From the NCBI GenBank assembly GCA_025362395.1, contig JANYGK010000053.1, positions 1 to 64,000 of the forward strand: a DNA stretch of 64,000 nucleotides, given 5' to 3'. This DNA is from Bacteroidota bacterium (GTDB lineage Bacteria > Bacteroidota > Bacteroidia > B-17B0 > Aurantibacillaceae). Shown here piece after piece: positions 12,743-33,131 of the stretch (position 1 is the first letter of the stretch; the number at the start of each line of letters is the position of its first letter). The translations under genes were made by a program, and so were the position numbers. Below the pieces are notes generated by a model. It did no database searches and was not told the DNA's origin. It saw only the letters and a program-made list of their open reading frames with translations.

Positions 12743-14008
12743 ATGAATATACTCATAAAACAAGCTACTGTTGTAAATACGGCGAGCCCATATAATGGCA
12801 AAGTAGTGGATATATTAATTGAGAGAGGAGTGATCACTCAAATAAAAAAATCAATTACTCCCGAGAAGGGAATAAAAACAATAGAAGCGGAAGGTTTATA
12901 TGTATCGTTAGGTTGGTTAGACATGCAGGTAAATTTTTGTGACCCGGGTAACGAACATAAAGAAACATTAGATAACGGCTTGAAGACTGCTGCTAAAGGT
13001 GGTTTTACGGGAGTATGCGTGATGAGTGGCACTAACCCACCGCTACATAACAAAGCACAAATTGAATATGTTGTAAACAGGGCAAAGGATAATTTGGTAA
13101 ATGTTTTCCCGATTGGAACGATCAGTCATAACAGGGAAGGGAAGGACCTTTCGGAAATGTACGATATGCAGCTTGCAGGAGCAGTGGCTTTCAGTGATTA
13201 TAAAAAAGCGATACAGGATGCGGGATTAATATTAAGAGCGTTACAATATTCGCAAAATATTAACAGCTTTATTATTACACACGCCGATGATAAAACTATT
13301 TCGCATGGCGGGCAAATGAATGAAAGCGTTGTTTCTACAAAGCTTGGTTTAAAAGGGATTCCTGCTCTGGCGGAAGAGCTTATGATACAACGTAATTTAC
13401 AAATACTGGAATATACAAGCGGCAAAATACATTTTCCTACCATAAGTACAAAAGGAAGCATTGATTTGATTAAAAAAGCAAAGGCTAACGGTTTAAACGT
13501 TACCTGCGGTGTGGCGGCACATAATTTATTACTGGATGAAACAGAATTAGAAAGCTTTGATACGAATTATAAGCTGAATCCGCCCCTCAGATCAAAAGAT
13601 GATGTAAATGCACTAAAAAGAGCTTTAGAAAATGGGATTATAGATGTGGTTGTAAGTGACCATAATCCACAGGATATTGAAAGTAAAGATTTAGAGTTTG
13701 ACCTGGCAGACAGTGGCATTGTGGCTTTGCAAACAGCGTTTAATTGTTTGGTTACAGCGATGCCCAAAATTACTCCCGAAAAAATAGGAGAATGTTTGGC
13801 AGAGAACCCGAGAGCTATTTTAGGATTTGAAAATAACATGATCAAAGAGGGGCAAGACGCTAACCTCACTTTATTTACGTTGACAGGCAAAACCACACTT
13901 TCAGAAAAAGACATTGTTTCTAAATCGAAGAACACACCATTTATAGGAAAAACATTACAGGGAAAAGTAATTGGCGCTATTAATAATGATAAGATCGTTT
14001 TAAATTAA
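12743..14008 (+). CDS. pyrC: Dihydroorotase-like amidohydrolase (degenerate metal site)
   Basis: 421 aa, with the length and fold of multifunctional-complex-type dihydroorotase, which cyclises carbamoyl-aspartate to dihydroorotate in pyrimidine synthesis. The SDHNPQD segment near the C-terminus matches the family's SDHAP motif. The N-terminal metal motif DxHxHxRxPG is instead DMQVNFCDPG, so both zinc-binding histidines are missing. Similar sequences annotated PyrC occur across Bacteroidota, so the change is probably conserved. It may be a non-catalytic partner (PyrC') or an altered enzyme. carB, the pathway's first enzyme, lies about 15 kb away. An extragenic repeat abuts the start. Confidence 0.7.
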   Translation: MNILIKQATVVNTASPYNGKVVDILIERGVITQIKKSITPEKGIKTIEAEGLYVSLGWLDMQVNFCDPGNEHKETLDNGLKTAAKGGFTGVCVMSGTNPPLHNKAQIEYVVNRAKDNLVNVFPIGTISHNREGKDLSEMYDMQLAGAVAFSDYKKAIQDAGLILRALQYSQNINSFIITHADDKTISHGGQMNESVVSTKLGLKGIPALAEELMIQRNLQILEYTSGKIHFPTISTKGSIDLIKKAKANGLNVTCGVAAHNLLLDETELESFDTNYKLNPPLRSKDDVNALKRALENGIIDVVVSDHNPQDIESKDLEFDLADSGIVALQTAFNCLVTAMPKITPEKIGECLAENPRAILGFENNMIKEGQDANLTLFTLTGKTTLSEKDIVSKSKNTPFIGKTLQGKVIGAINNDKIVLN

Positions 14009-14018
14009 TAGCTGTATT

Positions 14019-15074
14019 TTGAGTAAACCCACGTTAATTATAGTTACCCCGGGTTTTCCAACAAACGAACAGGATACGTCTTGTTTACCTGCCTTTCAGC
14101 AGTTCGTCCTCTCCTTAAAAACTCAATTTCCACAAAATAATTTAATGGTTATTTCCTTTCAATATCCTTTCGAAAAAAAAGAATATACTTGGAACGGGAT
14201 TAGTGTTATTGCTTTAGGCGGAAAGAACAGGTCTAAATTATTTCGCGTCATGATATGGCTTAAAGCCTATCAAGTATTGAGTAGAATAAAGAAACAACAT
14301 TCTATTATGGGAATTGTAAGTTTATGGGCTACAGAATGCGCTTTAGTTGCAAATACATTTGCTAAAAAAAATAAGTTAAAACACCTGATCTGGATCATAG
14401 GCCAAGATGCCAAAGTGACCAATAAGTATATTGCCCTTATTAAACCTGAACCCGGCCAACTTATGGCTATGAGTGATTTTTTGAAGGATGAATTTTTTAA
14501 GAACCATCACATAACACCGGGCTTTGTTGTTGAGAACGGCATTAAAGAATCGGTATTCCCGGAATTTAATATTAATGAAAGACCTATTGATATATTTGGC
14601 GCGGGCTCGTTGATTCCATTAAAAAACTATAGTTTATTTATTGAATTAATAGCTGAAGTTAAATTAATTTTCCCGGATATACAGGCAGCTATTGCAGGAG
14701 GTGGCGAAGAAAAAAATAAATTACAGGACCTTATTAATAAATATGATCTTAGCAAAACTATAACATTACTTGGCGCCAAAACCCACGCTGAAACATTGGA
14801 TTTAATGAATGCCGGCAAATTGTTTTTGCATACTTCCTTTTACGAAGGTAATTCAACGGTGTTAATGGAGGCATTATATAGTGGCTGTAAAGTCATAAGT
14901 ACGTGCCCTTTATCTCATCAAACAACAGAGAATTTGTTTATTGAAAGGGAGCATACTAGGTTAAAAGAAAAAATCCTAAAACTATTATCTCAAAACAGTA
15001 GTGTTCAAAAAAGAGTGGTGTTTAATACAATGGACAGGTCTGCTCAACGTATCGTTGATCTACTTTTGCAATAG
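14019..15074 (+). CDS. Glycosyltransferase family 4 (GT-B fold)
   Basis: 351 aa from a TTG start; no in-frame ATG is near. The N-terminal Rossmann domain begins with a beta strand and VTPGFP; the C-terminal donor-binding domain has FGAGSLIPLKNY and the HTSFYEGNSTVLMEAL segment, whose E-x7-E pair (EGNSTVLME) is the GT4 retaining-enzyme signature. It transfers a nucleotide-activated sugar to a glycan or lipid acceptor at the cytoplasmic face. It follows the dihydroorotase gene by 10 bp and overlaps the 3' end of a converging GT4 by 15 bp, opening the glycan island. Confidence 0.8.
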   Translation: MSKPTLIIVTPGFPTNEQDTSCLPAFQQFVLSLKTQFPQNNLMVISFQYPFEKKEYTWNGISVIALGGKNRSKLFRVMIWLKAYQVLSRIKKQHSIMGIVSLWATECALVANTFAKKNKLKHLIWIIGQDAKVTNKYIALIKPEPGQLMAMSDFLKDEFFKNHHITPGFVVENGIKESVFPEFNINERPIDIFGAGSLIPLKNYSLFIELIAEVKLIFPDIQAAIAGGGEEKNKLQDLINKYDLSKTITLLGAKTHAETLDLMNAGKLFLHTSFYEGNSTVLMEALYSGCKVISTCPLSHQTTENLFIEREHTRLKEKILKLLSQNSSVQKRVVFNTMDRSAQRIVDLLLQ

Positions 15075-16163
15075 AGAATTTGCAATTGCTTCTATTTTTT
15101 TACCTATTGCCTGCAATGATAATTCTTTATTAAAATGTAAAGCAACTTTTGTACTTAATTCTTCCGGATTAATAGTATGAAGCTGTGATAATTTGTGAAG
15201 CAGGTCGTTTGTATTTCCGGGTTCAAAAAGAAAACCAAGTTGTCCGTTATCGGTCATTTTTAAAAATGATGAAATAGCTGTAGCTAAAGGAATACAGCCG
15301 CATGCCATGGCTTCGCATAAAGCAATGCCGCTGCCTTCGTAGTGTGATCCCGCAATAAAATAATCTGCGGCGCTATACCAATCTTCCAATTCAGGGTGAG
15401 GAACTTTTCCAAGTAAATTAATATAAGTTTGTAAATTATTTGTATCAATATAATTTTTTATTTCTTTTTCCAGCTCATCGGTAGCATATATCATATACAA
15501 CTTAAACTCATTTCCTGACTCTTTAAATTTATGTAACGCTTTTATAACAGTGAGAGGATCTTTATTGTTATCTAACCGCCCGACCCATAAAAACATGAGA
15601 GTGTTGGGGGTGTTTAAACGCTTTCTTGCTTCAGCTTTATCTTTTTTACGAAAGAGGGTTGAGCCTTCCATTACCTCAAAGATTTTATGTTTATCTTTTA
15701 TAATAGCATCCTCTAAAAATACGTCAGCCAATTCTTTTGATGAAAATAAATAGGCATCCGCCCTTGAATAAGCTATTTTTTGAAACAGCCGCTTTACTTT
15801 ATTAATAAAGGGTTTTTCGGCATGGTGTTGAATAATGAGCTTTGTGGTTTTAGGGATGAAGAGCTGTAATATCAGTAGTTGAACCGGGAACATAAAACCG
15901 TGAACCAATATAACTGTAGGATTTTCTTTACAAACATACTTGCATAATTTTAAAGGGAGATAAAAAAATCCGGTACGTCCTTTAACAAATAATTCATTAG
16001 TTTTATTCGGAGGAGTAAATCCGGGTTCTGTAAGTTTAAGATGAGTTACTTCAAAACTCTTGCTCATGCTTTCGTAAACCCTGGAATCTATAGTATGCCG
16101 GTATTCCAAAAAGTCGAATTCAGATCGCCTGACGGCTAAAAATAATATATTGAATAACTTCAT
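15060..16163 (-). CDS. Glycosyltransferase family 4 (GT-B fold)
   Basis: 367 aa. The N-terminal acceptor domain is followed by the nucleotide-sugar domain with FLWVGRLDNNKDP and the signature EGSGIALCEAMACG (E-x7-E), both typical of GT4. It is unlike the neighbouring GT4 outside these motifs. It converges with that gene, the 3' ends overlapping by 15 bp, and is divergent from the GT2 gene at 16218. It probably adds one residue of a cell-surface polysaccharide or glycolipid; the sugar is unknown. Confidence 0.8.
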   Translation of the reverse strand: MKLFNILFLAVRRSEFDFLEYRHTIDSRVYESMSKSFEVTHLKLTEPGFTPPNKTNELFVKGRTGFFYLPLKLCKYVCKENPTVILVHGFMFPVQLLILQLFIPKTTKLIIQHHAEKPFINKVKRLFQKIAYSRADAYLFSSKELADVFLEDAIIKDKHKIFEVMEGSTLFRKKDKAEARKRLNTPNTLMFLWVGRLDNNKDPLTVIKALHKFKESGNEFKLYMIYATDELEKEIKNYIDTNNLQTYINLLGKVPHPELEDWYSAADYFIAGSHYEGSGIALCEAMACGCIPLATAISSFLKMTDNGQLGFLFEPGNTNDLLHKLSQLHTINPEELSTKVALHFNKELSLQAIGKKIEAIANSLLQK

Positions 16164-16217: not shown

Positions 16218-17108
16218 ATGCGTGTCAGCGCGCTTACCATTTTACATAACCGGGTCGATCTTTTTGCTGATACAGTGCGCTCTGTATTAAGTCAGTCACA
16301 TCCTGTACATGAGCTGGTAGTGATTGATGACGGTTCCACGGAAGATGTAAAAAGCTTACTGGACAGCTTTAATGATCCGCGGATACACTATTTCTATTAT
16401 AAAAGAATTGGTGTGATCAGCAAGCTTAGGAACATTGCTATTTTAAAAAGTACCGGCGACTACCTTGCTTTTATTGATTCGGATGACCTTTGGCATGAAG
16501 ATAAAATAAAGATCCATGTAGAAGAAACATTACGCACCGGTTCGGATATTTCATTCAGTGATTGCCAATTATTTAATGCGGAAGGTAATGTCGGGAAAAA
16601 TGTAGCGCATCAAATGTATGGTAAAGAAATTGATGTGTTTAAAGAACTTACTGTGCATAATATATCCCTGGCATTTGGGACAAATATTTTTTATAAAAAA
16701 GAGATTAATAGGAATGTTCCTTTATTGGATGAGCGTTTATTTGTAGGAGAGCATGATTTGATCGTTCGACTTTCTGCAAAGTATAAGAGTATTTTTATTC
16801 CGCGTGTTTTAAATTATATCAGGCGGCATGACAGGAATACGAGTAAAGAAAATACGATTCTGGATACTATTTCTCCTTTGGAATATAACAGGACCGTGGA
16901 TAAGCTTTTGGCTGAAGGTGCGCTCTCAAAGCAACAATGCCATGTTATTAAAGCAAGAAATTACAGTAAGGTTGGAGGGTATTACTTATATAAAAAACTA
17001 TATAAAAAAAGCAGGAAATACCTTGTACGATCTCTATTGTTAGATTTTCAATTTTATTATCTGAAGATCTTTCTTAAGATAGTTCTGCACGAAATAAAAA
17101 ACCGTTGA
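16218..17108 (+). CDS. Glycosyltransferase family 2 (GT-A fold)
   Basis: 296 aa. The GT-A domain spans about residues 1-200, with VVIDDGSTED (nucleotide-binding loop) and FIDSDDLWH (the DxD-type motif binding metal and UDP-sugar). EHDLIVRL may hold the catalytic base. The C-terminal about 80 residues are basic and helical, suggesting membrane association. It starts 54 bp from the divergent GT4 and converges with the GNAT gene. It is an inverting transferase of the surface-glycan island with unknown sugar specificity. Confidence 0.8.
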   Translation: MRVSALTILHNRVDLFADTVRSVLSQSHPVHELVVIDDGSTEDVKSLLDSFNDPRIHYFYYKRIGVISKLRNIAILKSTGDYLAFIDSDDLWHEDKIKIHVEETLRTGSDISFSDCQLFNAEGNVGKNVAHQMYGKEIDVFKELTVHNISLAFGTNIFYKKEINRNVPLLDERLFVGEHDLIVRLSAKYKSIFIPRVLNYIRRHDRNTSKENTILDTISPLEYNRTVDKLLAEGALSKQQCHVIKARNYSKVGGYYLYKKLYKKSRKYLVRSLLLDFQFYYLKIFLKIVLHEIKNR

Positions 17109-17116
17109 GGTTCATT

Positions 17117-18004
17117 TCAAAAAATATCAATATCAGTAAATTGAAATTTTAAATTGCCGGTGTTATAAGTTCCGCTTAGGTTTTTAATTATAACGGCAAA
17201 GCCCGGTTCCGGCTTTACAAGTTTTGATAAGGCTGCGTTTAATTGGTTTTGCGGAGATACCATAAAAGTAATAGAAGATGTATTTGTTAAATTTTGAATG
17301 GTTTTAATAAGTTGCTGGACTATCTCTTTTTTAAAAGGAGACAATCCGCCAATCCATCCACCTTTCGACACATTTATCCAAAACGATGTTTCGTTTTCCT
17401 GAACAATTAAATTTTGACTGTAACTTTTTTTATAGTTTATGTAATTTTTGCTGTAAACAACTCCATCATAACCCTCTTCAACTAATGAGTTATTTATAGT
17501 ATCGTTTTTTTTCTTAAAATGTATTAATCCCAGCTTCCTGTATAATAATTTATACGGAGTATTTGTAAATTGAAAGCTGAACCTGTTCAATGTTTCGGCA
17601 TGAGTAAAACCAAGTTTTTGAATAAAGCCGGGATAAGAATTTTGATTCGGAAAGCCAAAAACGAAATGAATGCCTTGTTTTTTCGCCAACTCAAACGTTT
17701 GTTTGGCAAGGGTTACAAATAATCCTTTTTTTCGATGATTTGGATGCGTCATCGTATCACACGACTGGGCGGCTAAAACGAGTTGTTTATTAATAGAAAC
17801 AATAATTGGCACAACACCATAATAGGCAATAGGTATTTCGCCTTCAAATGCTAAAAAGCCAATATATTCTGCGCCTGTATAAGACGTGTTATATTTTAAA
17901 TCGAAATAATGTTTAGCGCATTTTTTTTGGTATACGGCTTCAAAGAGTATATACAACCCATTTATATTTTCCGCATTGAGCTTAACTATATTATAATTAC
18001 TCAT
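17117..18004 (-). CDS. GNAT family N-acyltransferase
   Basis: 295 aa from the ATG at 18004; the ORF track start at 18049 lies inside the upstream gene. The N-terminal half is a GNAT fold: HPNHRKKGLF is the acetyl-CoA pyrophosphate-binding Q/RxxGxG/A-type loop, and FGFPNQNSYPGFIQKLGF is the terminal strand-helix typical of this family. The C-terminal half may be a second degenerate GNAT-like domain. Such proteins in polysaccharide loci acylate amino sugars or nucleotide sugars. It overlaps the deacetylase gene by 8 bp. A deacetylase next to an acyltransferase suggests exchange of the N-acyl group on an amino sugar. Confidence 0.7.
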   Translation of the reverse strand: MSNYNIVKLNAENINGLYILFEAVYQKKCAKHYFDLKYNTSYTGAEYIGFLAFEGEIPIAYYGVVPIIVSINKQLVLAAQSCDTMTHPNHRKKGLFVTLAKQTFELAKKQGIHFVFGFPNQNSYPGFIQKLGFTHAETLNRFSFQFTNTPYKLLYRKLGLIHFKKKNDTINNSLVEEGYDGVVYSKNYINYKKSYSQNLIVQENETSFWINVSKGGWIGGLSPFKKEIVQQLIKTIQNLTNTSSITFMVSPQNQLNAALSKLVKPEPGFAVIIKNLSGTYNTGNLKFQFTDIDIF

Positions 18005-19010
18005 AATTATTTTTCGAAATATAATACATTTGGTTGATCGCCGATACAAAAGGATTTACGGTAAAACGCTCATATATTTTATTTTTTGAATCTACCCGAA
18101 ACTTTTTTTCCGTTCCAAACAGCAATGTTAATTCATGATTCTCACAAGCGGTTATAACTTTTTGATTATAACTGCCAAAAGGAAAAGCGATCGCCTCAAT
18201 GCGTCTATCCAAAACGGCTGCAAAATAATTTACGGAGTTTTCCAATTCGTTATTTATATCAATATCCGATAATGTACTAAGGTCAGTATGGTATAAGCCA
18301 TGTGAACCAATCTCATAATCCGGGTATTCACTAATTTCTTCCATTTCCTCTTCATTCATTAATTCAAAATAGATCTTATTTTCATCAAGTTTTGCAGGGG
18401 GAATTACTTTTATGAGTTCGCGTACAATGCTTTCACGCGTTACGTAAGAAGCGTCATGATAACGTTCCGCAAGTGATACCCCTTCTTTATTTAGGAAACG
18501 GTGGTTAAGAAATATTTTCTCTGAAAAAAAATATTCATCGTTAATCTCAACATCATTATTTATTAACAAAGGGGCAATATCAGTAATGTCATTAAACATA
18601 TATGGCAGCGATGTATTAGCGAGACCCGTTACAAAAAAGACAGCAGGAATACTGTGTTTTTTCAATAAAGGAAATGCATGCGTAAAGTTATTTTTCAAAC
18701 CGTCATCAAAGGTGATAAGGATATTTAATTTTTCATTCGATAAATTATTATTTTTCAAATCCTTTAACGAAACGAGGTTATACAGTTTTTTGATCAATAC
18801 AAGATGCTCCTCAAATTGTTTTGCGGTAATAAAACGCGAGTTAAACTTATACGGCTCTGTTTCACAAATCCCGTGATATACCAATATTCTCAGTCCGTTT
18901 GCCCGGTGTATTTCTGCAGGGATGTATTTGAATAATTTATAATTGATATTAAAAAAACCCTCCCTTAAAGCTTTAGTAACTTTTTTATAGATATGTTTTA
19001 ATTTAACCAT
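17997..19010 (-). CDS. Polysaccharide deacetylase family protein (NodB/CE4)
   Basis: 337 aa. The NodB domain is clear: ITFDDGLKNN (motif 1, catalytic base and metal Asp), SHGLYHTDL (motif 2, HxxxH metal ligands) and FPFGSYN (motif 3). The N-terminal basic, helical segment lacks a signal peptide and may be a membrane-associated extension. CE4 enzymes remove N-acetyl groups from chitin-like glycans, peptidoglycan or glycolipid amino sugars. It precedes and overlaps the GNAT gene and follows the GT-C gene by 20 bp, so all three probably form one operon. Confidence 0.8.
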   Translation of the reverse strand: MVKLKHIYKKVTKALREGFFNINYKLFKYIPAEIHRANGLRILVYHGICETEPYKFNSRFITAKQFEEHLVLIKKLYNLVSLKDLKNNNLSNEKLNILITFDDGLKNNFTHAFPLLKKHSIPAVFFVTGLANTSLPYMFNDITDIAPLLINNDVEINDEYFFSEKIFLNHRFLNKEGVSLAERYHDASYVTRESIVRELIKVIPPAKLDENKIYFELMNEEEMEEISEYPDYEIGSHGLYHTDLSTLSDIDINNELENSVNYFAAVLDRRIEAIAFPFGSYNQKVITACENHELTLLFGTEKKFRVDSKNKIYERFTVNPFVSAINQMYYISKNNYE

Positions 19011-19030
19011 GAACGTAATTACAAGATAAG

Positions 19031-20485
19031 TTATTTATTATTAAGCTTATTTTGGAAATAATAGACAGTATAATTTTCAAATTTATTTATTGACCCATAA
19101 AATGCCGTCTTAGTGGAAAAAATGGTATTCTTAGTTTTGGAATTAATAAGACTGTCTAAATTTCGGTTTGTCACAAAATAAAATGGAGGCGTTTTATTTT
19201 CTCCAAGCCTTTTCAATAAGTGATCTATAAAAACTGACTCAGTCGAATTAGCATCTCCATAGCAGGTAAGGCATGACAAGGTAAAAGGACTGCCTGTGGT
19301 GGCATCCAAATAATTTCGTTCATAATAATGATTAAGGGTTGTGTAAACAGACTGCGGATAAACATATACCGGGTCAGCACTTTTAGAATTTGATCTTAAA
19401 TAGGATGCTGTATTCTTTGACTGTGAGAATGGCTTGATAATATCTTTAATGCAAAAATAAACCCCCGATACACTACTTATAAATAGAGAACTGTAGATCA
19501 GGTAGCTGAATGTTTTATTAAATCCGCTATTGCCGTTAGCTATAAGGAGCAACAGCGTTACAATAATCGTGTAGTAAATAGTGAAGTAGCGCATGGCACT
19601 AATTGGAAAAATAAAATAGAATAAGAGAATCGGAAAAAAACCTAAAAACAAAACGGATGTTTTATAGGTTTTTTTACATTGAAAATAGATAACCGTAAGA
19701 AGTCCTATAGATATCAAGGCAATATAACGTCTTAATAGTATATCGGAAAGTAAAGAAGAATTCCAGTCAGAAATTGTAAAGTTACTTAAGGGAAACAAAC
19801 CGATTGTAAAGCCTGATAAGCTGTGTGTAAGCCTTGCGGCAAAACTAACATCGAATCTCGGAATTAAATGAGCATTTTTCGGCGTTGAAAAATAAAGTGT
19901 CACAAGCATGCCGGCACCAAAAAACAAAATGTGTTTTATTTCCCTGCCTTTAAAAACAGATTTAAGATTGTTAAATTGAATCAGAAATAAAAAGGGTGCC
20001 AGCATAAAAAATAAATTATGCGAATTGGCTATTAAAAGTAAAACTATACTATTTCGAAGGCGGCTCGAGGTTTCATAATTAATAAAATATAAAATAACAA
20101 AACAAAAAGCGAAAGAATAAGTTCTGACAAGTACTGTATATTCGAAAGCAAGGTTATAACTGAAAACAACAAAAACAAGAATTGACAATGGTAGTTTTGA
20201 CCTGAATAAAAGAAGATAAGCCGTGATGATTGAAAAGCTTAGATTAATTAATTTCGGGCCAATGTCGGAGTCATACAGCTTATAAGATATAAAATAAAAA
20301 AACTCTACGAGCCATGGTTCGCCTTCGTTTTTCATATTATTGTAATAGTCGAAAAATGAATTGCTGTTTTTGCTGATGTTTAGCCGGTGAGCTTCATCCA
20401 ACCATAGTTCGTGAAAAAAACTGCTGCATAAAACAAGACTTATGAATAAAAAGAATAAGAGAATTTTAATGTGTTTTTTACTCAT
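19031..20485 (-). CDS. GT-C fold membrane glycosyltransferase
   Basis: 484 aa from the ATG at 20485. The ORF track extends to 20608, but that would overlap the divergent radical SAM gene, and the first natural N-terminus is MSKKHIK followed by a hydrophobic helix. There are 10-11 transmembrane segments, an ELWLDEAHR acidic motif in the first periplasmic loop (GT39/GT83 type), and a periplasmic C-terminal domain of about 110 residues. It probably uses a polyprenyl-phosphate sugar. It shares layout but little sequence with the GT-C protein at 1350. It is first in the operon with the deacetylase and GNAT genes. Confidence 0.65.
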   Translation of the reverse strand: MSKKHIKILLFFLFISLVLCSSFFHELWLDEAHRLNISKNSNSFFDYYNNMKNEGEPWLVEFFYFISYKLYDSDIGPKLINLSFSIITAYLLLFRSKLPLSILVFVVFSYNLAFEYTVLVRTYSFAFCFVILYFINYETSSRLRNSIVLLLIANSHNLFFMLAPFLFLIQFNNLKSVFKGREIKHILFFGAGMLVTLYFSTPKNAHLIPRFDVSFAARLTHSLSGFTIGLFPLSNFTISDWNSSLLSDILLRRYIALISIGLLTVIYFQCKKTYKTSVLFLGFFPILLFYFIFPISAMRYFTIYYTIIVTLLLLIANGNSGFNKTFSYLIYSSLFISSVSGVYFCIKDIIKPFSQSKNTASYLRSNSKSADPVYVYPQSVYTTLNHYYERNYLDATTGSPFTLSCLTCYGDANSTESVFIDHLLKRLGENKTPPFYFVTNRNLDSLINSKTKNTIFSTKTAFYGSINKFENYTVYYFQNKLNNK

Positions 20486-20518
20486 TATCTCAAATATAAT
20501 TATTATTTTAGTAATATA

Positions 20519-22012
20519 ATGATCCTGCTTTTTAATCCCCGCGCATCCAATCACAAGCCCCGCATACCTAACAGTATATTGCAGGTAGCGGCCAGTATAA
20601 ACGGGCAATATGATTGGGTAATAGTAGATGGAAACTTAGAAGCGGATCCCTGGAAAAAAATAAATGATTATTTAGCTACAGGAAAATTCAATTATTTTGG
20701 GTGTACCGTTATGCCCGGCCCTCAATTAAAACAAGCCATTCCTTATTCTAAAAAAATTAAAGAATTGTATTCCTACGTCAAAATTATTTGGGGCGGTTAT
20801 TTTGCTTCTAATCAGTACAAAGTAATTTTAGATTCAGGTTATGTAAATTATATTGTAAACGGGCCCGGTGATAATACATTTCCAAAATTATTAAATGCCT
20901 TAGAAAATAATTTACCGGTTAACGACATTAAAAACCTTATCATACACGAGAACGGCCAGTATATTAAAACGGCGAAAGAAGAATTATTAGACCTTGATAA
21001 ACTACCGGATCTGCCATACGACAAACTAAATGCATTTTATCCTTTATCAAAATACTTAGGCAAAACGTATTTGGGAACGCGTACATTGGCTTACCACAGC
21101 AGTTTCGGTTGTCCTTTCACCTGTTCGTTTTGTGCCGTGGTTCCCATTTATAACGCCCGTTGGAAAGGAAAATCTGCCCTTGGAATTTATAACGATGTAA
21201 AAGCATTAAAAGAAAAACACAACGTAGATGCAATCGAATTTCATGATAATAATTTTTTTGTATCAGAAAAACGGGTTGTTGAATTTTCTAATCTTATAAA
21301 AAACGAGAATATTGTATGGTGGGGGGAAGCCCGTATTGATACAATGGATAAATATAAGGATGAATCTCTTGCCATACTGAGAGCATCAGGTTGTAAGATG
21401 ATATTTTTTGGTGCTGAAACAGGGAATGACGAAGTACTTAAAAAAATGGATAAAGGAGGCACTCAAACCGGGGCGCAAATTTTACAATTTGCAGAACGTT
21501 TAAAAAAGTTTGATATTATTCCTGAATACTCTTTTGTACTTGGTACGCCCGGGGATAATGAAGAAGAAGTGAATAAACAGATTGACGGTGATATTGAATT
21601 TATAAAAAAAGTAAAAGCAATTAACCCAAACACAGAAATTATTATTTATACGTACAGTCCCGTACCTACTGAAGGTTCTGATATGTATCAAAAAGTGCTT
21701 GACAGCGGCTTTAAATTTCCTGAAACGCTGGAGGATTGGATCAGCCCGGCCTGGGAAAACTTTGATCTGAGAAAGAACCCTTTAACCCCTTGGATCAAAC
21801 CTTATATGATCGATAAGATCCGTAATTTTGAAACAGTATTGAATGCATACTATCCTACTATATCAGATATTAAATTAAATAAAACAAAAGTATTTTTATT
21901 GAAGCTGATGAGCGCTTGGCGTTATAAATTTCATGTATATGTTTTCCCGAAAGAAATACGCTTGCTGCATGTGCTGTGGAAATACAGACAACCTGAAAAA
22001 GAAGGCTTTTAA
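20519..22012 (+). CDS. B12-binding-domain radical SAM protein
   Basis: 497 aa from the ATG at 20519; the track's extra 16 residues would run into the divergent gene. The N-terminal cobalamin-binding-like Rossmann domain is residues 1-140, the radical SAM domain about 175-400. FGCPFTCSFCAV is the CxxxCxxC motif binding the 4Fe-4S cluster and SAM, and FFGAETGND is the SAM-binding GGE-like strand. The family (class B, BchE/elongator-like) does radical methylations, cyclisations and other C-C chemistry. The substrate is unknown. It is first of six co-directional genes; the next start overlaps its stop (TAATG). Confidence 0.85.
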   Translation: MILLFNPRASNHKPRIPNSILQVAASINGQYDWVIVDGNLEADPWKKINDYLATGKFNYFGCTVMPGPQLKQAIPYSKKIKELYSYVKIIWGGYFASNQYKVILDSGYVNYIVNGPGDNTFPKLLNALENNLPVNDIKNLIIHENGQYIKTAKEELLDLDKLPDLPYDKLNAFYPLSKYLGKTYLGTRTLAYHSSFGCPFTCSFCAVVPIYNARWKGKSALGIYNDVKALKEKHNVDAIEFHDNNFFVSEKRVVEFSNLIKNENIVWWGEARIDTMDKYKDESLAILRASGCKMIFFGAETGNDEVLKKMDKGGTQTGAQILQFAERLKKFDIIPEYSFVLGTPGDNEEEVNKQIDGDIEFIKKVKAINPNTEIIIYTYSPVPTEGSDMYQKVLDSGFKFPETLEDWISPAWENFDLRKNPLTPWIKPYMIDKIRNFETVLNAYYPTISDIKLNKTKVFLLKLMSAWRYKFHVYVFPKEIRLLHVLWKYRQPEKEGF

Positions 22013-22689
22013 TGAACCTGCTGTATCATACATATTATAAATATATTTATAAGCCTGTGGCAACGGTTTATTTAAAATCAGATTCTAATATTACGTTTGA
22101 TGATTTTAAACTTAAAATTTTAAAAGATGTATTTCATCCTAAGCTGTTTTTCAGTTCACGCTACTTTTATGATTTTTTAAAAACTAAAAATCTATCCGGT
22201 AAATTATTTTTAGAGATCGGCTGCGGCTCAGGAATACTAAGCTTATTAGCTTTCAGGAAAAATGCAAAAGTTACTTTAACGGACATTGATCCTAAGGCGA
22301 TAGAAAATGCTTCGCTAAATTTCAGAACTAATTTTAAAGATTCGTTTAACGAAGCAGAGATGGTACAAAGCGATGTGTTTAGCAATATACCCCAAAAGAA
22401 ATTTGATGTTATTGTGGTGAATCCTCCTTACTATTTTAAAAAGGTAGAAGTTGATAAACAATTGGCATGGTATTGCGGAGAGAACGGGGAATATTTCGAG
22501 AAGTTTTTTTCTACTTTGCAGTTTTATGTATATCCTGCAAGTGATGTGTATATGGTATTAGCCGATACCGCTGAAATAGAACGTATAAAACATATTGCTC
22601 AAAAACATAAAATAACTTTTTCTGTAGCAGATGAAAAACAGATAAAGTTTGAAAAGAATTATATCTTCCAATTGAGCCTTCAACACTAA
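22012..22689 (+). CDS. SAM-dependent methyltransferase (HemK/RlmG-like)
   Basis: 225 aa. Class I methyltransferase fold: LEIGCGSG (motif I) and VVNPPYY (motif IV, the NPPY signature of enzymes methylating amide or ring nitrogens, e.g. PrmC and rRNA/DNA N-methyltransferases). In this operon a small-molecule target is as likely as protein or RNA. Its start overlaps the stop of the radical SAM gene by one base, indicating translational coupling. Confidence 0.75.
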   Translation: MNLLYHTYYKYIYKPVATVYLKSDSNITFDDFKLKILKDVFHPKLFFSSRYFYDFLKTKNLSGKLFLEIGCGSGILSLLAFRKNAKVTLTDIDPKAIENASLNFRTNFKDSFNEAEMVQSDVFSNIPQKKFDVIVVNPPYYFKKVEVDKQLAWYCGENGEYFEKFFSTLQFYVYPASDVYMVLADTAEIERIKHIAQKHKITFSVADEKQIKFEKNYIFQLSLQH

Positions 22690-23630
22690 ATACTATAGAA
22701 ACAACAGAATATATATTTACAAAAAGTCGTTTAGAAATCATCAAAGCAGTATTATACTTTGAGGTCTTTGAATACCCGCTAACAGTTGATGAACTTTTCG
22801 AGAATTCTGCCGTAAACATTACAAAAGAAGAGTTTGTATCTGAGCTTGAGTTATTATTAGAGAAGAAAACATTAACCAGGTCAGGTCGTTTTATATTAGG
22901 ATTGAAAGCAAACACTGCTGCTATTGCCAAAAGATTAAATGGAAATAAAGGGGCCGAAAGTATTATGGAAACGGCTTACAGGTATAGTAAAAAAGTAGCC
23001 TCCTTTCCTTTTGTAGAAGGCATTTGCTTATCGGGTGGTTTGTCGAAAAATTACTATGACGAAAAAGGAGACATTGATTTTTTTATCATTACAAAGCCCG
23101 GAAGATTATGGATCTGTCGAACCTTGTTGATCATTAAATACAAGCTCTTGCCAAAAAGTAAAAAGAAATTTTGGTGTGTTAATTATTTTATTTCCTCTGA
23201 CAGCTTATCTATTCCTGAGAATAATGTATTTACCGGGACGGAGCTAGCATACCTCATTCCTACAGTAAACTATAGCGTTTATGAAAATCTATTGAATAAA
23301 AATAAATGGTATAAAACACGTTTTCCCAATAAAGAAATATTGTCGGACGTTAATTGTATTAATACTCCCACGCCGATTTTGAAATCAGTTATAGAAAATA
23401 TATTTTCCGGTAAATTGGGAATGTGGCTTGATAATACGTTGCTAAGCCTTACCTTAAAACACTGGAGGAAAAAATACCCTGAAATGAATCATGAAGATTT
23501 TGAATTGCAATTCAGATCCAGGAAAGACGTATGTAAGCGACACACTAACGGGTTCCAAAACATAGTGTTGCAAAAATGGACTGAAAAACAAAATGAGTAT
23601 GAGCAAATGTTGAATATAAAATTTACATAA
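22671..23630 (+). CDS. Nucleotidyltransferase-fold protein with N-terminal winged helix; start uncertain
   Basis: The ORF track starts at TTG 22902, but the frame is open from 22653 and the extra residues read as a winged-helix-like domain (IIKAVLYFEVFEYPLTVDEL), so the real protein is longer (about 310-319 aa). No ATG, GTG, TTG or CTG exists in that frame upstream of 22902. Candidate starts are ATT 22671, ATA 22695 or ATA 22713. The catalytic part has SGGLSKNYYDEKGDIDFF, the GS-x-DxD pattern of polymerase-beta-type nucleotidyltransferases, followed by KPGRLW as in a family often found beside glycan and lipid genes. It may nucleotidylate a small molecule or sugar; the substrate is unknown. 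Confidence 0.65.
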   Translation: MEPSTLNTIETTEYIFTKSRLEIIKAVLYFEVFEYPLTVDELFENSAVNITKEEFVSELELLLEKKTLTRSGRFILGLKANTAAIAKRLNGNKGAESIMETAYRYSKKVASFPFVEGICLSGGLSKNYYDEKGDIDFFIITKPGRLWICRTLLIIKYKLLPKSKKKFWCVNYFISSDSLSIPENNVFTGTELAYLIPTVNYSVYENLLNKNKWYKTRFPNKEILSDVNCINTPTPILKSVIENIFSGKLGMWLDNTLLSLTLKHWRKKYPEMNHEDFELQFRSRKDVCKRHTNGFQNIVLQKWTEKQNEYEQMLNIKFT

Positions 23631-23644
23631 TTAACAGGCATTAA

Positions 23645-25105
23645 TTGAAAGTATTATTTACACATAGTTATTTTTTAAAGTTTGATGCAAAGCAATATAA
23701 AACGGCTATGCCTTATCCGCCTTTGGGAACGCTCTATGCCATGTCTTATTTGAAAGAGCATGGTTACGAAGTAAAATTATTTGATACCATGTTTTGTGAT
23801 TCGGCTAAAGACATCTTCACTACGATTAATACATACAAGCCGGACATATTTATAAGTTACGACGACGGGTTTAATTACTTAACAAAAATGTGCCTGACTA
23901 ACATGCGTGAAGCATGTTTTGAAATGCAGGAATATGCAAGATCTAAAAACTGTAAAATAATTACGTCGAGTTCTGATGCAGTCGATCATTACGAGGAATA
24001 TTTAAACCATGGGGCAGACGCTATTGCTATAGGGGAGGCTGAGCAAACTGTACTGGAACTATGTAATGCATTTAAAAATAATACCGGTATTAATTTAATT
24101 CCCGGTATTGCCTTTAACGAAGGCGGTTCTTTAAAGCTGACTGCTAAACGCTCGGTTATTAAAGATCTTGATACATTGCCTCCTCCTGCATGGGATGATA
24201 TTGATGTTGCGCCTTATAAAAACATGTGGGTGGAAAATCACGGCTACTTTTCTCTAAATTTTGTAACCACGCGCGGTTGCCCTTATAAATGTAACTGGTG
24301 CGCAAAACCTATATACGGGAACCGTTATAACTCGCATAGCCCGGAAAACATTGTTTTGGAAATTAAAAAAAGACAGCAACAATTCGGTTTCACACATATT
24401 TGGTTTGCCGATGATATTTTTGGCTTAAAGCCTCATTGGCTTAGCGAATTTGAACATTACATTAAAAAAGAAAATGTAATTATAAATTACAAAATCCAAA
24501 GCCGGGCTGATCTTCTTTTAGAAGAAGACAACATCATTCATTTAGCAAACAGCGGCTGTAAAACTGTTTGGATGGGCGCAGAGAGTGGTTCTCAGAGGAT
24601 ACTTGATGCTATGGATAAAGGCACAAAAGTAGAACAGATCTACAAAGCTACCGAGCTATTAAAAAAACACCACATACATGTAGCATTATTTTTACAGTTG
24701 GGTTATTTAGGAGAAACTATTGATGACATAACGCTTACCATAAAAATGGTGGAAGACCTGATGCCTGATGACATAGGGATTTCTGTTTCATATCCTTTAC
24801 CCGGAACCGTTTTTTATGATAAAGTGAAGCATCAGTTAAAAGAAAAAAGCAACTGGGTGGATAGTGATGATCTTGACCTTATGTTTGAAAATACGTATGG
24901 AAAAGAATTTTATAAAGTGCTGCAACGTTACATCCATAAGCGTTACAGGCATGCGGTAGGTATCCGGGCTCTCCATAATTTAAAGAAAGATTTTTCTTTA
25001 CGGAATATTAAAAATGGATTAGCGCTCCTGCATATTGTTACCTCAGAAAGTAGGGCTAAGAAAAAGTTAATTGCTTTAGAACCTTTAATACGTTCAAAGT
25101 TTTAG
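23645..25105 (+). CDS. B12-binding-domain radical SAM protein
   Basis: 486 aa from a TTG start 14 bp after the nucleotidyltransferase gene. The N-terminal cobalamin-binding-like domain (1-150, with YPPLGTLYAMSYL) is followed by a radical SAM domain with TRGCPYKCNWC (CxxxCxxC), WFADDIFG, and WMGAESGS. The C-terminal 80 residues are helical. It resembles the BchE/HpnJ group rather than the first radical SAM protein of the operon, so the pair are probably not a recent duplication. It may do a second radical step (methylation, oxidation or rearrangement) on the same product. Confidence 0.85.
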   Translation: MKVLFTHSYFLKFDAKQYKTAMPYPPLGTLYAMSYLKEHGYEVKLFDTMFCDSAKDIFTTINTYKPDIFISYDDGFNYLTKMCLTNMREACFEMQEYARSKNCKIITSSSDAVDHYEEYLNHGADAIAIGEAEQTVLELCNAFKNNTGINLIPGIAFNEGGSLKLTAKRSVIKDLDTLPPPAWDDIDVAPYKNMWVENHGYFSLNFVTTRGCPYKCNWCAKPIYGNRYNSHSPENIVLEIKKRQQQFGFTHIWFADDIFGLKPHWLSEFEHYIKKENVIINYKIQSRADLLLEEDNIIHLANSGCKTVWMGAESGSQRILDAMDKGTKVEQIYKATELLKKHHIHVALFLQLGYLGETIDDITLTIKMVEDLMPDDIGISVSYPLPGTVFYDKVKHQLKEKSNWVDSDDLDLMFENTYGKEFYKVLQRYIHKRYRHAVGIRALHNLKKDFSLRNIKNGLALLHIVTSESRAKKKLIALEPLIRSKF

Positions 25106-25107
25106 TT

Positions 25108-25869
25108 TTGGAAATAGTAAGTCATATTAATTTCCAAGACGGAGTTCATGTTTCCGGGCCAACACGCCAACATTTTTCTGATTTCGAAACACATTATATT
25201 TCGGTGAGAAATAAAGAAAAGCGGGTATTATCTATTTCTGAAATTCAACAGCTGCCTTACCCTGATATCACAAACGCAAATTACAACGAATGGAAGCTTC
25301 GTCAAAAAAGCATCGAACGCTTTTTATCTTATTTACATAAAAAGAAAACGCCTTTGCGCATTTTAGATATTGGTTGCGGCAATGGTTTTATGACGCATTT
25401 AATGGCAAGTAACCAAAATGAGGCTGTGGGCGTCGATGTTAATTTAACGGAGTTAAAACAAGCTGCTATTGCGTTTCCCGGTAAAAATTTAAAATGGTAT
25501 TATTTAGATATTCTAAACGAAACCTTACCCGAAAAACCCTTTGATATCATAACATTCGGCGCATCGTTCCAGTATTTTAAAGACGCAAAGCAAATTTTGG
25601 ACACGTGTAAAAATAGGTTATCTAAAGCCGGGGAAATCCATATTATTGACAGCCCTTTTTATTCAGAAAATTCTAAACTAAACGCTAAGGAAAATTCCAA
25701 ACACTATTTCAATAAAATGGGTGTAGAGCACATGAACAATTATTATAATCATCATTCCTACAGTGTTTTTACCAATTATAAGAGTGAAATACTGTACGAT
25801 CCAAATTCAATGATCAATAAATTATTCAGAAGATCAAATTCACCTTTTCCTTGGATAAAAATTAGTTAG
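25108..25869 (+). CDS. SAM-dependent methyltransferase (class I)
   Basis: 253 aa from a TTG start only 2 bp after the radical SAM stop codon. Methyltransf_25-type core: LDIGCGNGFMTHL (motif I), GVDVN (acidic loop), FDIITFGASFQYF (motif IV), then the HIIDSPFY strand. The N-terminal 80 residues are a family-specific extension with a Tyr/Asn-rich region. Substrate unknown; its position suggests it modifies the same product as the flanking radical SAM enzymes. Confidence 0.75.
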   Translation: MEIVSHINFQDGVHVSGPTRQHFSDFETHYISVRNKEKRVLSISEIQQLPYPDITNANYNEWKLRQKSIERFLSYLHKKKTPLRILDIGCGNGFMTHLMASNQNEAVGVDVNLTELKQAAIAFPGKNLKWYYLDILNETLPEKPFDIITFGASFQYFKDAKQILDTCKNRLSKAGEIHIIDSPFYSENSKLNAKENSKHYFNKMGVEHMNNYYNHHSYSVFTNYKSEILYDPNSMINKLFRRSNSPFPWIKIS

Positions 25870-25874
25870 CTTTG
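25867..25874 (+). promoter_or_regulatory. Possible internal promoter -7 element
   Basis: TAGCTTTG fully matches TAnnTTTG, 18 bp before the ATG of the last methyltransferase. No good TTG lies 19-21 bp upstream, so support is only partial. Confidence 0.35.
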
Positions 25875-25892
25875 TAAATCTTAATTTAAGAA

Positions 25893-26708
25893 ATGAATCA
25901 CACTCAACAGGAAGAGCAAGTAAGCGGTGCATTCAGCAGCCAATCGGCGGTATTTGACAGCATTACTGATTCTAACCCGTTGGAAGTAATTTATAGGGAA
26001 ATTATACGAACCCATGTGTTACAATTTATTTCACCCGGGCAGCAAATGCTCGAATTAAATTGCGGGACAGGCTTGGACGCTCTTTTTTTCGCATCGCAAG
26101 GTCTTAAAATTCACGCTACCGATAATTCGGAAGGGATGCTGGAACAATTAAAAAGAAAGATCCTTTTGCAACATATTGAAAACATTACTATTGAAAAATG
26201 TTCCTTTAATGCCTTAGAGCTTAAAAAAAATCCGGTGACTCAATTCGATCACCTCTTTTCAAATTACGGTGGTTTAAATTGTGCGGAAGATATAACCTCT
26301 GTTATAAAACAAGCAGATGCTTATTTAAAACCGGGCGGCATGGCTCATTTTGTGTTTATTGCTCCTGTTTGCTTGTGGGAATGGGCAACACTCTTTAAAG
26401 GAAAATATAAATTTGCTTTCAGGCGGCTCACAAAAAAAGGAGTAAAATCGCACTTGGAGGGACATTATTTTGACACCTATTATTATTCTCCGAATACGAT
26501 TAAAAAAGCATTCGGCCATAGATATGAATTAGTGCAATTACGTTCGTTAGGTTGCTTTATGCCGCCAACCTTTAACGATTATTTTCCCGCAAAATATCCT
26601 AAATTATTCAATGTCTTAAAAACAATGGAGTTGGCTGTTAACACAAAATGGCCGTTTAACCGGATCGGTGATTTATTTATTATTTCCGTAAAAAAGGAAG
26701 AGGCTTAA
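25893..26708 (+). CDS. SAM-dependent methyltransferase (class I, Methyltransf_11/25 type)
   Basis: 271 aa. Motif I is LELNCGTG, with Asn where Gly is usual, which still fits; then HATDNSEGML (ribose-binding acidic residue), FDHLFSNYGGLNC, and YLKPGGMAHF. The N-terminal segment VSGAFSSQSAVFDSI recalls the lid helix of ubiquinone/menaquinone-type C-methyltransferases. Residues about 165-215 form an insertion that may hold the acceptor. It is the last gene of the radical SAM operon, 23 bp after the previous gene, and may also have its own promoter. Confidence 0.75.
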   Translation: MNHTQQEEQVSGAFSSQSAVFDSITDSNPLEVIYREIIRTHVLQFISPGQQMLELNCGTGLDALFFASQGLKIHATDNSEGMLEQLKRKILLQHIENITIEKCSFNALELKKNPVTQFDHLFSNYGGLNCAEDITSVIKQADAYLKPGGMAHFVFIAPVCLWEWATLFKGKYKFAFRRLTKKGVKSHLEGHYFDTYYYSPNTIKKAFGHRYELVQLRSLGCFMPPTFNDYFPAKYPKLFNVLKTMELAVNTKWPFNRIGDLFIISVKKEEA

Positions 26709-27265
26709 AAGCTTATCCCAACACTTACTCCGCCCCAAAACGTAAAATACCCGGGATGAAAACCCAAAGCATCATTACTCATAACGGCAGGGGTAATGCC
26801 TGCCCTTAAAAAAAAGCCGTCATCCTTTTTTTGATAACGGTAGCCGCAGCGCCAAACGCTGAATAATATATTTTCCCAAAAATAAACATCCGTTTGGTTG
26901 GGCCGTTCATTATAACGCCGCTGCATCGTAACACCAACGCCAAACTCTAAATGATGCGGATTTTTAAATAAAATAAAATTATTCTCCAATACATAAGCTT
27001 GCTCTATATAAATGCCGTTAAAATTCGGCGCAAAACCCCCACGGACGCTCATTTTTAATTTTTCTTTGTAAAAATAAATTCGTTCATAATTCAAAGAAAA
27101 AAAACCGGCATTACCTCCTAATTCTATATAAGCCAAGTTTTTAGACGGATTCACCTCATAATCACGAGCCGGCCGCGGAGCCGTATAATCTTCTTCTTGT
27201 GCATTGGCTGAAAAGCCTGATAACACAACAAGAACGAATAGGATCGTATGTTTTAAAAAATGCAT
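26705..27265 (-). CDS. Outer-membrane beta-barrel protein
   Basis: 186 aa with a signal peptide ending at ANAQ (about residue 23), then alternating beta strands with LAYIELGGNAGFFSLNYE near the start and an aromatic terminal residue (VGISF), both typical of Bacteroidota barrel proteins. Function unknown. It converges on the methyltransferase operon, stop codons overlapping by 4 bp. Confidence 0.6.
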   Translation of the reverse strand: MHFLKHTILFVLVVLSGFSANAQEEDYTAPRPARDYEVNPSKNLAYIELGGNAGFFSLNYERIYFYKEKLKMSVRGGFAPNFNGIYIEQAYVLENNFILFKNPHHLEFGVGVTMQRRYNERPNQTDVYFWENILFSVWRCGYRYQKKDDGFFLRAGITPAVMSNDALGFHPGYFTFWGGVSVGISF

Positions 27266-27386
27266 TATTCAAACTTACAAAAATTTAGAAGGAAATAGTA
27301 AGGCGCGCATACTATTATTCCAATTTTATTAGTTAATACATGGCCATTAAAACTATAGCAGAAGATTTCTTAAGACATTGTGGAGA

Positions 27387-28052
27387 TCACTTATTATAAG
27401 GAATCTTACCAAAATGGATAGCTGCCGATTTTTTGCCTTTTAACTTAAATTTAATACGCATTTTTTTACCTTTTTTTAAATTCCAATTTTCTTGCAAATC
27501 TGTATTTATAAATAAAATTGTAGAAGAGAGGTTCGAATTATTTTTTAAGGAGAGCATCCACTTATAGTCTTCTAAAAGTTTTGTTTTTTTTCCGGCGAAT
27601 TTAGCCCAGAAAACAATTAGATAGTAATTTGTAAGGGGCCTATAATCATTATTAATAGGAAAAGCGTTTGAAAGAATAGCCGGTAGCTTGATACTATCGT
27701 TTACGCATGGCTGATAGTTTTTATTAAAGTCATAATAAGCTTCCTTTAGTTGTTTCCCGGTACACCTATCCTTGCCTTTATAGCAATATTTAAGGCCCGT
27801 GCTATCAAAAAGCAGAATTTCTCCCCGTAAACCATTGAGTATATTTTTAAAAATGTTCGAACTGTCAGAGCAACACTTTATAATATATGAATTTTGTAGG
27901 GGAACCTTTGATGCAATTAAATGATTTGTTATACTTTCTGTATTTTCAACTACAGGATTTTTGATTCCTATCATTTTTTTAAGTAGCGGCGAACATGAGT
28001 TCAGCGCCATTAAACAATACGTTAAAAAAAATGTATTTTTTTTTAAGATCAT
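27387..28052 (-). CDS. Putative lipoprotein with degenerate thioredoxin-like fold
   Basis: 221 aa. The N-terminal hydrophobic segment ends in ALNSC, a plausible though imperfect lipobox. The central strand YYLIVFWAKFAGKKTK looks like the thioredoxin FWAxWCGxCK strand-turn with both cysteines replaced, followed by STILFINTDLQENW as the next strand. I infer a catalytically dead thioredoxin-like domain in an envelope lipoprotein; no function is assigned. It follows another lipoprotein gene (28107) but is separated from it by a terminator. Confidence 0.45.
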   Translation of the reverse strand: MILKKNTFFLTYCLMALNSCSPLLKKMIGIKNPVVENTESITNHLIASKVPLQNSYIIKCCSDSSNIFKNILNGLRGEILLFDSTGLKYCYKGKDRCTGKQLKEAYYDFNKNYQPCVNDSIKLPAILSNAFPINNDYRPLTNYYLIVFWAKFAGKKTKLLEDYKWMLSLKNNSNLSSTILFINTDLQENWNLKKGKKMRIKFKLKGKKSAAIHFGKIPYNK

Positions 28053-28064
28053 TATACTATTATA

Positions 28065-28096
28065 AAAGTCCTTTACACTAAGGTAAAGGACTTTTT
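28065..28096 (-). terminator. Terminator between the two lipoprotein genes
   Basis: A perfect 13-bp inverted repeat, AAAAGTCCTTTAC and GTAAAGGACTTTT, with a 6-nt loop. On the minus strand it follows the 28107 gene stop by 11 bp. Confidence 0.8.
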
Positions 28097-28106
28097 AACA
28101 TTTTAA

Positions 28107-28634
28107 CTAGTTTAACCAAATTTTGTATCCGCCAAAATTTCCCATCGATGAATTATAAGGATACAAGCCTGCTTTTGCAACTAAATTTCTACCAATTACA
28201 GAACCTGCTGTGTTAACCAAAATATCTCCATCAATTGGTAAATTATCAAAATCGCTAGAAGTAGGACGCACATTTGCAAAAAGAATTTCTAAGTAATAAT
28301 TTCCATTATTGTCCTGCACAATTGGCGCACTATATCTGCCGGGAGTAGGTGTTTGGGGAAACCAAGTGAAATCGCAAAGACCCCATTTTTTGCAATCACT
28401 GTTTTTTCTTCCCCATTCTTCCCATGAACATAGTACTAATGTTCCACGCCCTGCGGCTAATAAATCTCTTTTTGAAAGATTAACAAACTCTACATTTTGA
28501 TAATCTTCCGTAATAGATTGGGGTTCATTAATAGGCTTTAAAGCTATCTGTGCTTTTTTTTCCTTGCTACAGCTAATAAAAACGGTAAGCGCTACCGACA
28601 ATAATAACGAAGAAGTTAAAATTACTTTTTTCAT
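28107..28634 (-). CDS. Hypothetical lipoprotein
   Basis: 175 aa. A lipoprotein signal peptide has FISC as lipobox (about residues 19-22), followed by a charged linker. The mature domain has four Cys in addition to the lipid-bearing one and a Trp-rich middle (CSWEEWGRKNSDCKKWGLCDFTW), then a beta-rich end. No family is recognised. A -7 element TAAGTTTG (+ strand 28670-28677) lies 36 bp before the ATG. Divergent from the XRE regulator. Confidence 0.55.
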   Translation of the reverse strand: MKKVILTSSLLLSVALTVFISCSKEKKAQIALKPINEPQSITEDYQNVEFVNLSKRDLLAAGRGTLVLCSWEEWGRKNSDCKKWGLCDFTWFPQTPTPGRYSAPIVQDNNGNYYLEILFANVRPTSSDFDNLPIDGDILVNTAGSVIGRNLVAKAGLYPYNSSMGNFGGYKIWLN

Positions 28635-28711
28635 AGTTAAATTTTTAAAGTTGGTGCCTTATGGCCTAACAAACTTATATTAAATATTAAATTTTATATA
28701 GTGAAAAAAAC

Positions 28712-28742
28712 AACTTTATGTCAAAAAAAAGTAACTTTACGT
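28712..28742 (+). promoter_or_regulatory. Possible XRE autoregulatory direct repeats
   Basis: AACTTTATGT (28712-28721) and AACTTTACGT (28733-28742) are near-identical direct repeats with a 21-bp period, two helical turns, just before the ATG of the XRE gene. The second overlaps TAACTTTA, a near -7 element. The layout suits repression by an HTH dimer. Confidence 0.4.
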
Positions 28743-28760
28743 AAACTTAAACTGCTTAAA

Positions 28761-29132: not shown

Positions 29133-29189
29133 GATCTGCCCTCCTAAGAAGTATTAATTAAATGTTAAAATCTTATATCTTCTAATTCT

Positions 29190-29222
29190 AACAAACTTGT
29201 ATCTTTACCAAGTTTGTTTTTT
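29190..29222 (+). terminator. Terminator after XRE gene
   Basis: ACAAACTTG and CAAGTTTGT form a perfect 9-bp stem around a 9-nt loop, followed by six T, 58 bp after the stop. Confidence 0.8.
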
Positions 29223-29336
29223 ACTGACGATTTGAAAGTTTTAAAGTTAAAGGTTTGGAAAGTTTTATTGCTTTAACCCTTTAAGTCTTCCGAAACTTTC
29301 TCAGCCTTCGTAACTCACAAACCTTCAACTTACAGA
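29223..29336 (+). repeat. AAAGTTT-type degenerate repeat region before carB
   Basis: GAAAGTTTTAAAGTTAAAGGTTTGGAAAGTTTT, then reversed-sense pieces (GAAACTTTC, AAACCTTC) form a low-complexity, partly inverted sequence. It ends immediately before the carB ATG. It resembles degenerate extragenic repeats; no clear promoter is seen in it. Confidence 0.35.
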
Positions 29337-29339
29337 AAA

Positions 29340-33127: not shown

Positions 33128-33131
33128 GCCG

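Follow-up and report, generated by a model that had tools for sequence, protein, structure and literature searches.

A conserved and modular set of B12-type radical SAM enzymes, a nucleotidyltransferase and methyltransferases within a glycan gene block of Bacteroidota

The window, meaning the whole stretch of 64,000 nt analyzed here (contig JANYGK010000053.1 of assembly GCA_025362395.1, from a Bacteroidota bacterium of the family Aurantibacillaceae), carries six plus-strand genes at 20519-26708. These encode two predicted B12-type radical S-adenosylmethionine (SAM) enzymes (RS1 and RS2), three methyltransferases (MT1, MTa, and MTb), and a nucleotidyltransferase (NT). The initial annotation had described them as a tightly packed, uncharacterized operon, and all open reading frames (ORFs) were confirmed at the positions in Table 1 with gaps or overlaps of 1-24 bp, provided that NT starts near 22695. 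In Pfam, MT1, annotated as the NPPY methyltransferase, was confirmed as class I, as were the two further methyltransferases, MTa and MTb; the NPPY motif was kept in 39/39 MT1 orthologues. Among the family models that score above their curated cut-offs, none points to a pathway for the set, which agrees with its description as uncharacterized. Matching gene sets were found again at dozens of loci across several orders, so the block is far above chance, and the genes are conserved as a set in relatives and not scattered. The system is real, conserved, modular, and larger than first reported, and it apparently represents undescribed radical SAM tailoring in biosynthetic clusters.

RS1 and RS2 are 26% identical to each other, in line with the annotation of two dissimilar cobalamin-type enzymes. 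Both scored above the cut-off of the Pfam model Radical_SAM (54.7 bits for RS1 and 73.9 bits for RS2), and the CxxxCxxC motif was present in 62/63 RS1 and 97/97 RS2 sequences. All RS1 orthologues searched (15/15) matched both Radical_SAM and B12-binding (PF02310 at E ≤ 0.01). The predicted structure of RS2 (predicted local distance difference test score, pLDDT, of 83) gave matches spanning both domains to MgmA, AprD4, TsrM, OxsB, CysS, and TokK, with E values of 1e-18 to 1e-13 (about 1e-18 to 1e-16 for the first four); as modeled, the fold supports a B12-type radical SAM identity and names no substrate. Having the CxxxCxxC core and an N-terminal Rossmann domain of the cobalamin-binding type, RS1 and RS2 are both putative class B radical SAM enzymes with predicted use of cobalamin. 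AprD4 suggests that this fold may occur without functional cobalamin. Since cobalamin riboswitches were present elsewhere in the genome in all ten RS2 carriers tested, cobalamin is handled by the carrier cells.

The NT frame extends stop to stop from 22653 to 23630. Its Pfam nucleotidyltransferase match was below threshold (17.4 versus a cut-off of 21 bits), but the conserved motif and the orthologue matches agree with the annotation of a nucleotidyltransferase with a winged helix. NTP_transf_2 was matched at E ≤ 0.1 in 30/31 NT orthologues, and the pattern G[GS]x9-13DxD was found in 82/84 NT sequences, with GSx10DxD conserved and both Asp residues invariant in the alignment. In the AlphaFold prediction (pLDDT 94.7), helices at the N terminus, interpreted as a winged helix, precede the nucleotidyltransferase domain. 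A sequence search of solved structures with NT returned nothing. Judged by its motif, NT is a pol-beta-type nucleotidyltransferase, for which the fold matches are weak. ATG, GTG, and TTG are absent from the frame before 22902, which lies past the conserved winged-helix part. The alignment with the locus of a congener (L032) places the start at about 22692-22695, where L032 has ATG and the window has ACT-ATA. The start is either non-standard (ATA at 22695 or ATT at 22671), coupled to MT1, lost, or obscured by a sequence error.

For the distribution analysis, 297 Bacteroidota genomes spread evenly over the phylum were searched. RS2 orthologues were found in 24 of them (about 8%), belonging to 21 genera, and the NT model recovered all 24 RS2 genomes plus three weak extras. 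In 24/24 genomes, the distance between NT and RS2 is no more than about 5 kb, and mostly the two are directly adjacent (in one genome, G346, NT is split by a contig end), with a hypergeometric p of ~1e-32 for the co-occurrence when relatedness is ignored. RS1 was found in 14/297 genomes, every one RS2-positive. From the 24/24 pairing and the confinement of RS1 to RS2 genomes, it follows that NT and RS2 are a fixed core pair and that RS1 is nested within it. The distances of RS2, NT, and RS1 correlate (Mantel r 0.65-0.74, 0/999 permutations), with a contribution from common descent. Weak NT matches in two genomes without RS2 (G179:C28:22978-23811 and G168:C1:2037242-2037904) lie inside longer frames of 669 and 675 aa and are possible NT-domain fusions. 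Among the GTDB contigs there are at least 535 candidate RS2 relatives, and the best 80 are all from Bacteroidota, Ignavibacteria, or Kapaibacteria where the record title names the group. The module is shared by hundreds of soil and water Bacteroidota, including the culturable genera Mucilaginibacter, Niastella, Chitinophaga, Dyadobacter, and Flavobacterium.

Gene content was compared across 54 RS2 loci with full flanks. Of these, 50 have NT, 41 RS1, 37 MTb, 32 MTa, and 31 a SPASM radical SAM enzyme; MT1 (17 loci), MTc (14 loci), and RS3 (13 loci) are rarer. RS3, a third B12-type enzyme, shares ~40% identity with RS2 in the closest relatives. The most frequent arrangement is RS1-MTa-SPASM-RS2-MTb, which a convergent NT gene borders at its 3' end. 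In the window and close relatives of it, RS1-MT1-NT-RS2 comes first, and either MTa-MTb or MTc-RS3 comes next. Locus L032 has nearly the order of the window with the SPASM gene inserted between NT and RS2. No match to the SPASM gene was obtained in the whole genome of the window, in a search run without a positive control, though the family is readily seen at the loci of relatives. Because L032 has this gene and the window's genome shows no match, the window holds a reduced version of the system, and its relatives have one or two further radical SAM enzymes. An ATP-binding cassette (ABC) exporter (c3, 24/54 loci) and an amidohydrolase (c2, 25/54 loci) also recur. Upstream of RS1 at one locus lies another RS1-like gene (L033:4979-6394) with 29% identity to RS1 of the window, which suggests duplication and divergence within the module.

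The six genes are part of a larger unit. In the RS2-lacking congeners (4/4 checked), pyrC, a conserved 186-aa gene, and carB are adjacent, with a pyrC-carB distance of ~0.7 kb, and in the window, 12.7 kb (14009-26704) fits exactly between pyrC and the 186-aa gene. As they all lie between these two genes, the glycosyltransferases, acetyltransferase, deacetylase, and membrane protein form one block at one site with the six genes. The initial annotation had placed the operon at 20519-26708 with a glycan module beside it; the genes stand, the unit is larger, and the glycan genes belong to it. In genera such as Mucilaginibacter, Dyadobacter, and Puia, families c0, c1, c7, c16, and c17 are found repeatedly at RS2 loci, and their frequent neighbors there are more glycosyltransferases, Wzy_C, a sugar transferase, and a PglK/MsbA-like exporter. 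The hydrophobic membrane protein is possibly a GT-C glycosyltransferase, as read from an LWLDEA stretch. No element was found near the operon with Rfam, and a promoter and terminator scan gave results no better than shuffles.

Table 1. Features of the system and the edges of its insertion site in the window, by position.
Feature	Description	Position	Strand	Basis
pyrC	left insertion edge, outside the system	12743..14008	+	neighbor of the 186-aa gene and carB where congeners lack RS2
c0	GT4-type glycosyltransferase, dedicated to the system	14019..15074	+	Pfam; distribution
c1	GT4-type glycosyltransferase, recurs with c0 at RS2 loci	15060..16163	-	Pfam; 33 loci in the comparison set
c7	GT2-type glycosyltransferase	16218..17108	+	Pfam; 21 loci
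c17	GNAT acetyltransferase, start uncertain	17117..18049	-	Pfam Acetyltransf_9; 10 loci
c16	polysaccharide deacetylase	17997..19010	-	Pfam; 11 loci
Membrane protein	hydrophobic membrane protein	19031..20488	-	no Pfam match; gene with 24% identity at locus L036 of a relative
RS1	predicted B12-type (class B) radical SAM enzyme, 497 aa	20519..22012	+	Pfam, orthologues
MT1	class I methyltransferase with NPPY, MTS/PrmC-like	22012..22689	+	Pfam MTS, 61 bits
NT	winged helix and pol-beta-type nucleotidyltransferase, ~311 aa	22695..23630, start codon uncertain (ATA 22695?)	+	conserved motif, AlphaFold
RS2	predicted B12-type radical SAM enzyme, 486 aa, core of the system	23645..25105	+	Pfam, fold match, distribution
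MTa	class I SAM methyltransferase	25108..25869	+	Pfam; 32/54 full RS2 loci
MTb	class I SAM methyltransferase	25893..26708	+	Pfam; 37/54 full RS2 loci
186-aa gene	conserved gene, right insertion edge, outside the system	26705..27265	-	between pyrC and carB in 4/4 RS2-lacking congeners

The pyrC-carB region (14009-29339 in the window) is a variable site for glycan islands: next to pyrC or carB, several RS2-positive relatives (loci L031-L033 and L035-L037) have glycan and radical SAM clusters that differ in content. In the window, the 186-aa gene is separated from carB by three genes (27387-29132) that are absent from the RS2-lacking congeners checked: an ORF reading like an XRE-type regulator and two genes for small proteins whose N-termini resemble signal sequences. 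A Bacteroidales small signal recognition particle RNA (RF04183, 98.5 bits) lies at 33029-33134 on the minus strand.

The solved structure nearest to RS2 is that of MgmA, the methyl-coenzyme M reductase glutamine C-methyltransferase (PDB 9ccb, PMC11796369), matched at E 1.9e-25 by sequence (RS2 profile) and at E 2.2e-18 by fold. The two differ, with 17% identity over the fold alignment and 100.5 bits for RS2 against an NCBIfam cut-off of 360. Methyl-coenzyme M reductase, the target of MgmA, is an archaeal methane enzyme. The second-best fold is AprD4, the radical SAM diol dehydratase of apramycin synthesis (PDB 6fd2), which acts on an amino sugar and is the best solved-structure sequence match of both RS1 and RS3; the identity is 16%, the scores fall far below the cut-off of the AprD4 model, and no apramycin-type pathway genes were seen. 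In fosfomycin synthesis, cytidylylation precedes the step of the B12 radical SAM methyltransferase Fom3 (PMC8158854). The addition of a nucleotidyl group before a radical SAM step would be a possible parallel between Fom1-Fom3 and NT-RS2, by analogy only, and no phosphonate genes were seen here. The cytidylyltransferase of Fom1 belongs to another family than NT. The protein O-glycosylation locus LFG of Bacteroidota is rich in glycosyltransferases and gives products with methyl and acetyl groups (PMC12871550). It shares phylum and glycosyltransferase richness with the window locus but opens with metG and a wzx flippase gene, an arrangement absent at the window, and the RS2 set is found in only ~8% of phylum genomes.

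Several identities were rejected. No NCBIfam model came near its cut-off for RS1, RS2, or NT, and all scores for named families were below cut-off. A typical cluster for a ribosomally synthesized and post-translationally modified peptide was ruled out, as no conserved short precursor ORF was found. For anti-phage defense, PADLOC gave only generic methyltransferase and radical SAM similarity. An MNT-HEPN toxin-antitoxin pair was rejected because the partner of NT is RS2 and no other conserved small neighbor recurs, with the HEPN models run on part of the neighbors. A plasmid-borne system was likewise rejected, since RS2 had no match among 72,556 plasmids at E ≤ 1e-40.

The reading we favor, at a probability of about one half, is a dedicated tailoring module in which a methylated or rearranged sugar-like group would be made and passed to a surface glycan or glycolipid. 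It is favored because it suits the constant pairing of RS2 with NT, the changing set of helper enzymes, and the glycan surroundings. The link of the system to glycans is well supported, though unproven. At least one recurrent glycan family lies at 45/54 full RS2 loci, as in polysaccharide or glycoconjugate clusters, and matches to c0 at E ≤ 1e-60 were found in 9/297 genomes, 9/9 RS2-positive and each within 10 kb of RS2. Among the B12-type enzymes that the RS2 fold resembles is AprD4, whose substrate is the amino sugar paromamine, in line with a sugar substrate for RS2. In the course of reactions that we infer, RS2 (with RS1, and with the SPASM enzyme or RS3 in relatives) would carry out radical C-methylation, dehydration, or rearrangement of a sugar or sugar-like building block. 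NT may place a nucleotide onto the building block or its precursor, either for binding by RS2 or for activation of the product; this is suggested by analogy with the precedent of Fom3, which acts on a cytidylylated substrate, and taken by itself the nucleotide-handle step is a tentative and fairly unlikely proposal. The methyltransferases would add O- or N-methyl groups, and c0, c1, c7, the deacetylase, and the acetyltransferase would assemble or trim the glycan, which many relatives would export through an MsbA/PglK-like exporter or a Wzx/Wzy set.

Several observations weigh against the tailoring of a glycan. The closest solved relative of RS2 by sequence, MgmA, methylates a protein glutamine, and no nucleoside diphosphate-sugar enzyme (dehydratase or aminotransferase) was found among the recurrent families. 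The Pfam model for B12-binding is below its cut-off of 32.1 bits in RS1 (25 bits) and RS2 (23.5 bits) of the window, and the matches of NT to folds in the PDB are weak, with none at E ≤ 1e-3; the sensible ones are MNT antitoxins, HalB, and the aminoglycoside nucleotidyltransferases ANT4/AadA. Because RS2 loci supplied the sequences for the c0 model, its 9/9 specificity is partly a product of selection, and the figure of 45/54 stands without a background rate for random Bacteroidota loci. The other 9/54 loci lack a recurrent glycan family within 10 kb, and the other genes there are unannotated.

Three other explanations were weighed. A soluble specialized metabolite, glycosylated and aminoglycoside- or nucleoside-like, could be made by NT, the radical SAM enzymes, and the methyltransferases, glycosylated by c0 and c1, and exported by the ABC transporter. 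The modular gene content, the patchy distribution (24/297 genomes), the recurrence of c3 and c2, and the presence of AprD4 and OxsB among the nearest folds of RS2 would suit such a product. We nevertheless regard it as unlikely: no scaffold enzyme is recognizable, the exporter is not in the block of the window, and many loci adjoin Wzy, Wzx, and sugar-transferase genes for polymer assembly. Modification of a protein encoded elsewhere, with C-methylation by RS2, N-methylation by MT1, and nucleotidylation by NT, is suggested by the closeness of RS2 to the MgmA structure, by the resemblance of MT1 to glutamine methyltransferases, and by the match of NT to MNT, which AMPylates HEPN. SPASM enzymes often act on peptides, which also counts in its favor. 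This explanation is quite improbable, given that c0 is a glycosyltransferase restricted to RS2 genomes, that no candidate target protein recurs among the neighbors, and that no small ORF at RS2 loci is conserved past two or three near relatives.

Membrane lipid modification, which the initial annotation had offered as one option, would yield a hopanoid cyclitol ether or a methyl-lipid through B12 radical SAM enzymes of the HpnJ, HpnR, or ladderane type. RS1-RS3 do score against the BchE, HpnJ, HpnR, and ladderane models, all far below the curated cut-offs (89-145 versus 577.6 bits for HpnJ). In the HpnI-HpnK-HpnJ route, a glycosyltransferase, a deacetylase, and a radical SAM enzyme act on a lipid-linked amino sugar to give bacteriohopanetetrol cyclitol ether (PMC12583986), and similar gene types are present here. 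Squalene-hopene cyclase (PF13249) was found in 0/10 carriers with a positive B. subtilis control, and on this result, together with the HpnJ scores, the hopanoid cyclitol ether pathway itself was rejected. No lipid or fatty-acid genes are among the recurrent neighbors, and lipid modification in general is very unlikely.

Searches of open-access literature for this gene set turned up no account of it, which is weak evidence of absence. Extended to the whole phylum, the glycan-tailoring module would be a route to a new glycan building block, in which NT provides a handle, two to four radical SAM enzymes act one after another to C-methylate or rearrange the carbon skeleton, and dedicated glycosyltransferases place it on the surface; in this full form, the proposal is speculative and rather unlikely. 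The substrates of most B12-type radical SAM enzymes have yet to be assigned, and RS2 comes with an obligate partner (NT), recurring helpers, and a glycan setting. As carriers include culturable genera, the chemistry of RS2 can be sought directly. If the glycan reading is true, the surfaces of common soil Bacteroidota would carry sugars derived from radical chemistry, and the dependence on cobalamin would tie surface structure to the B12 supply.

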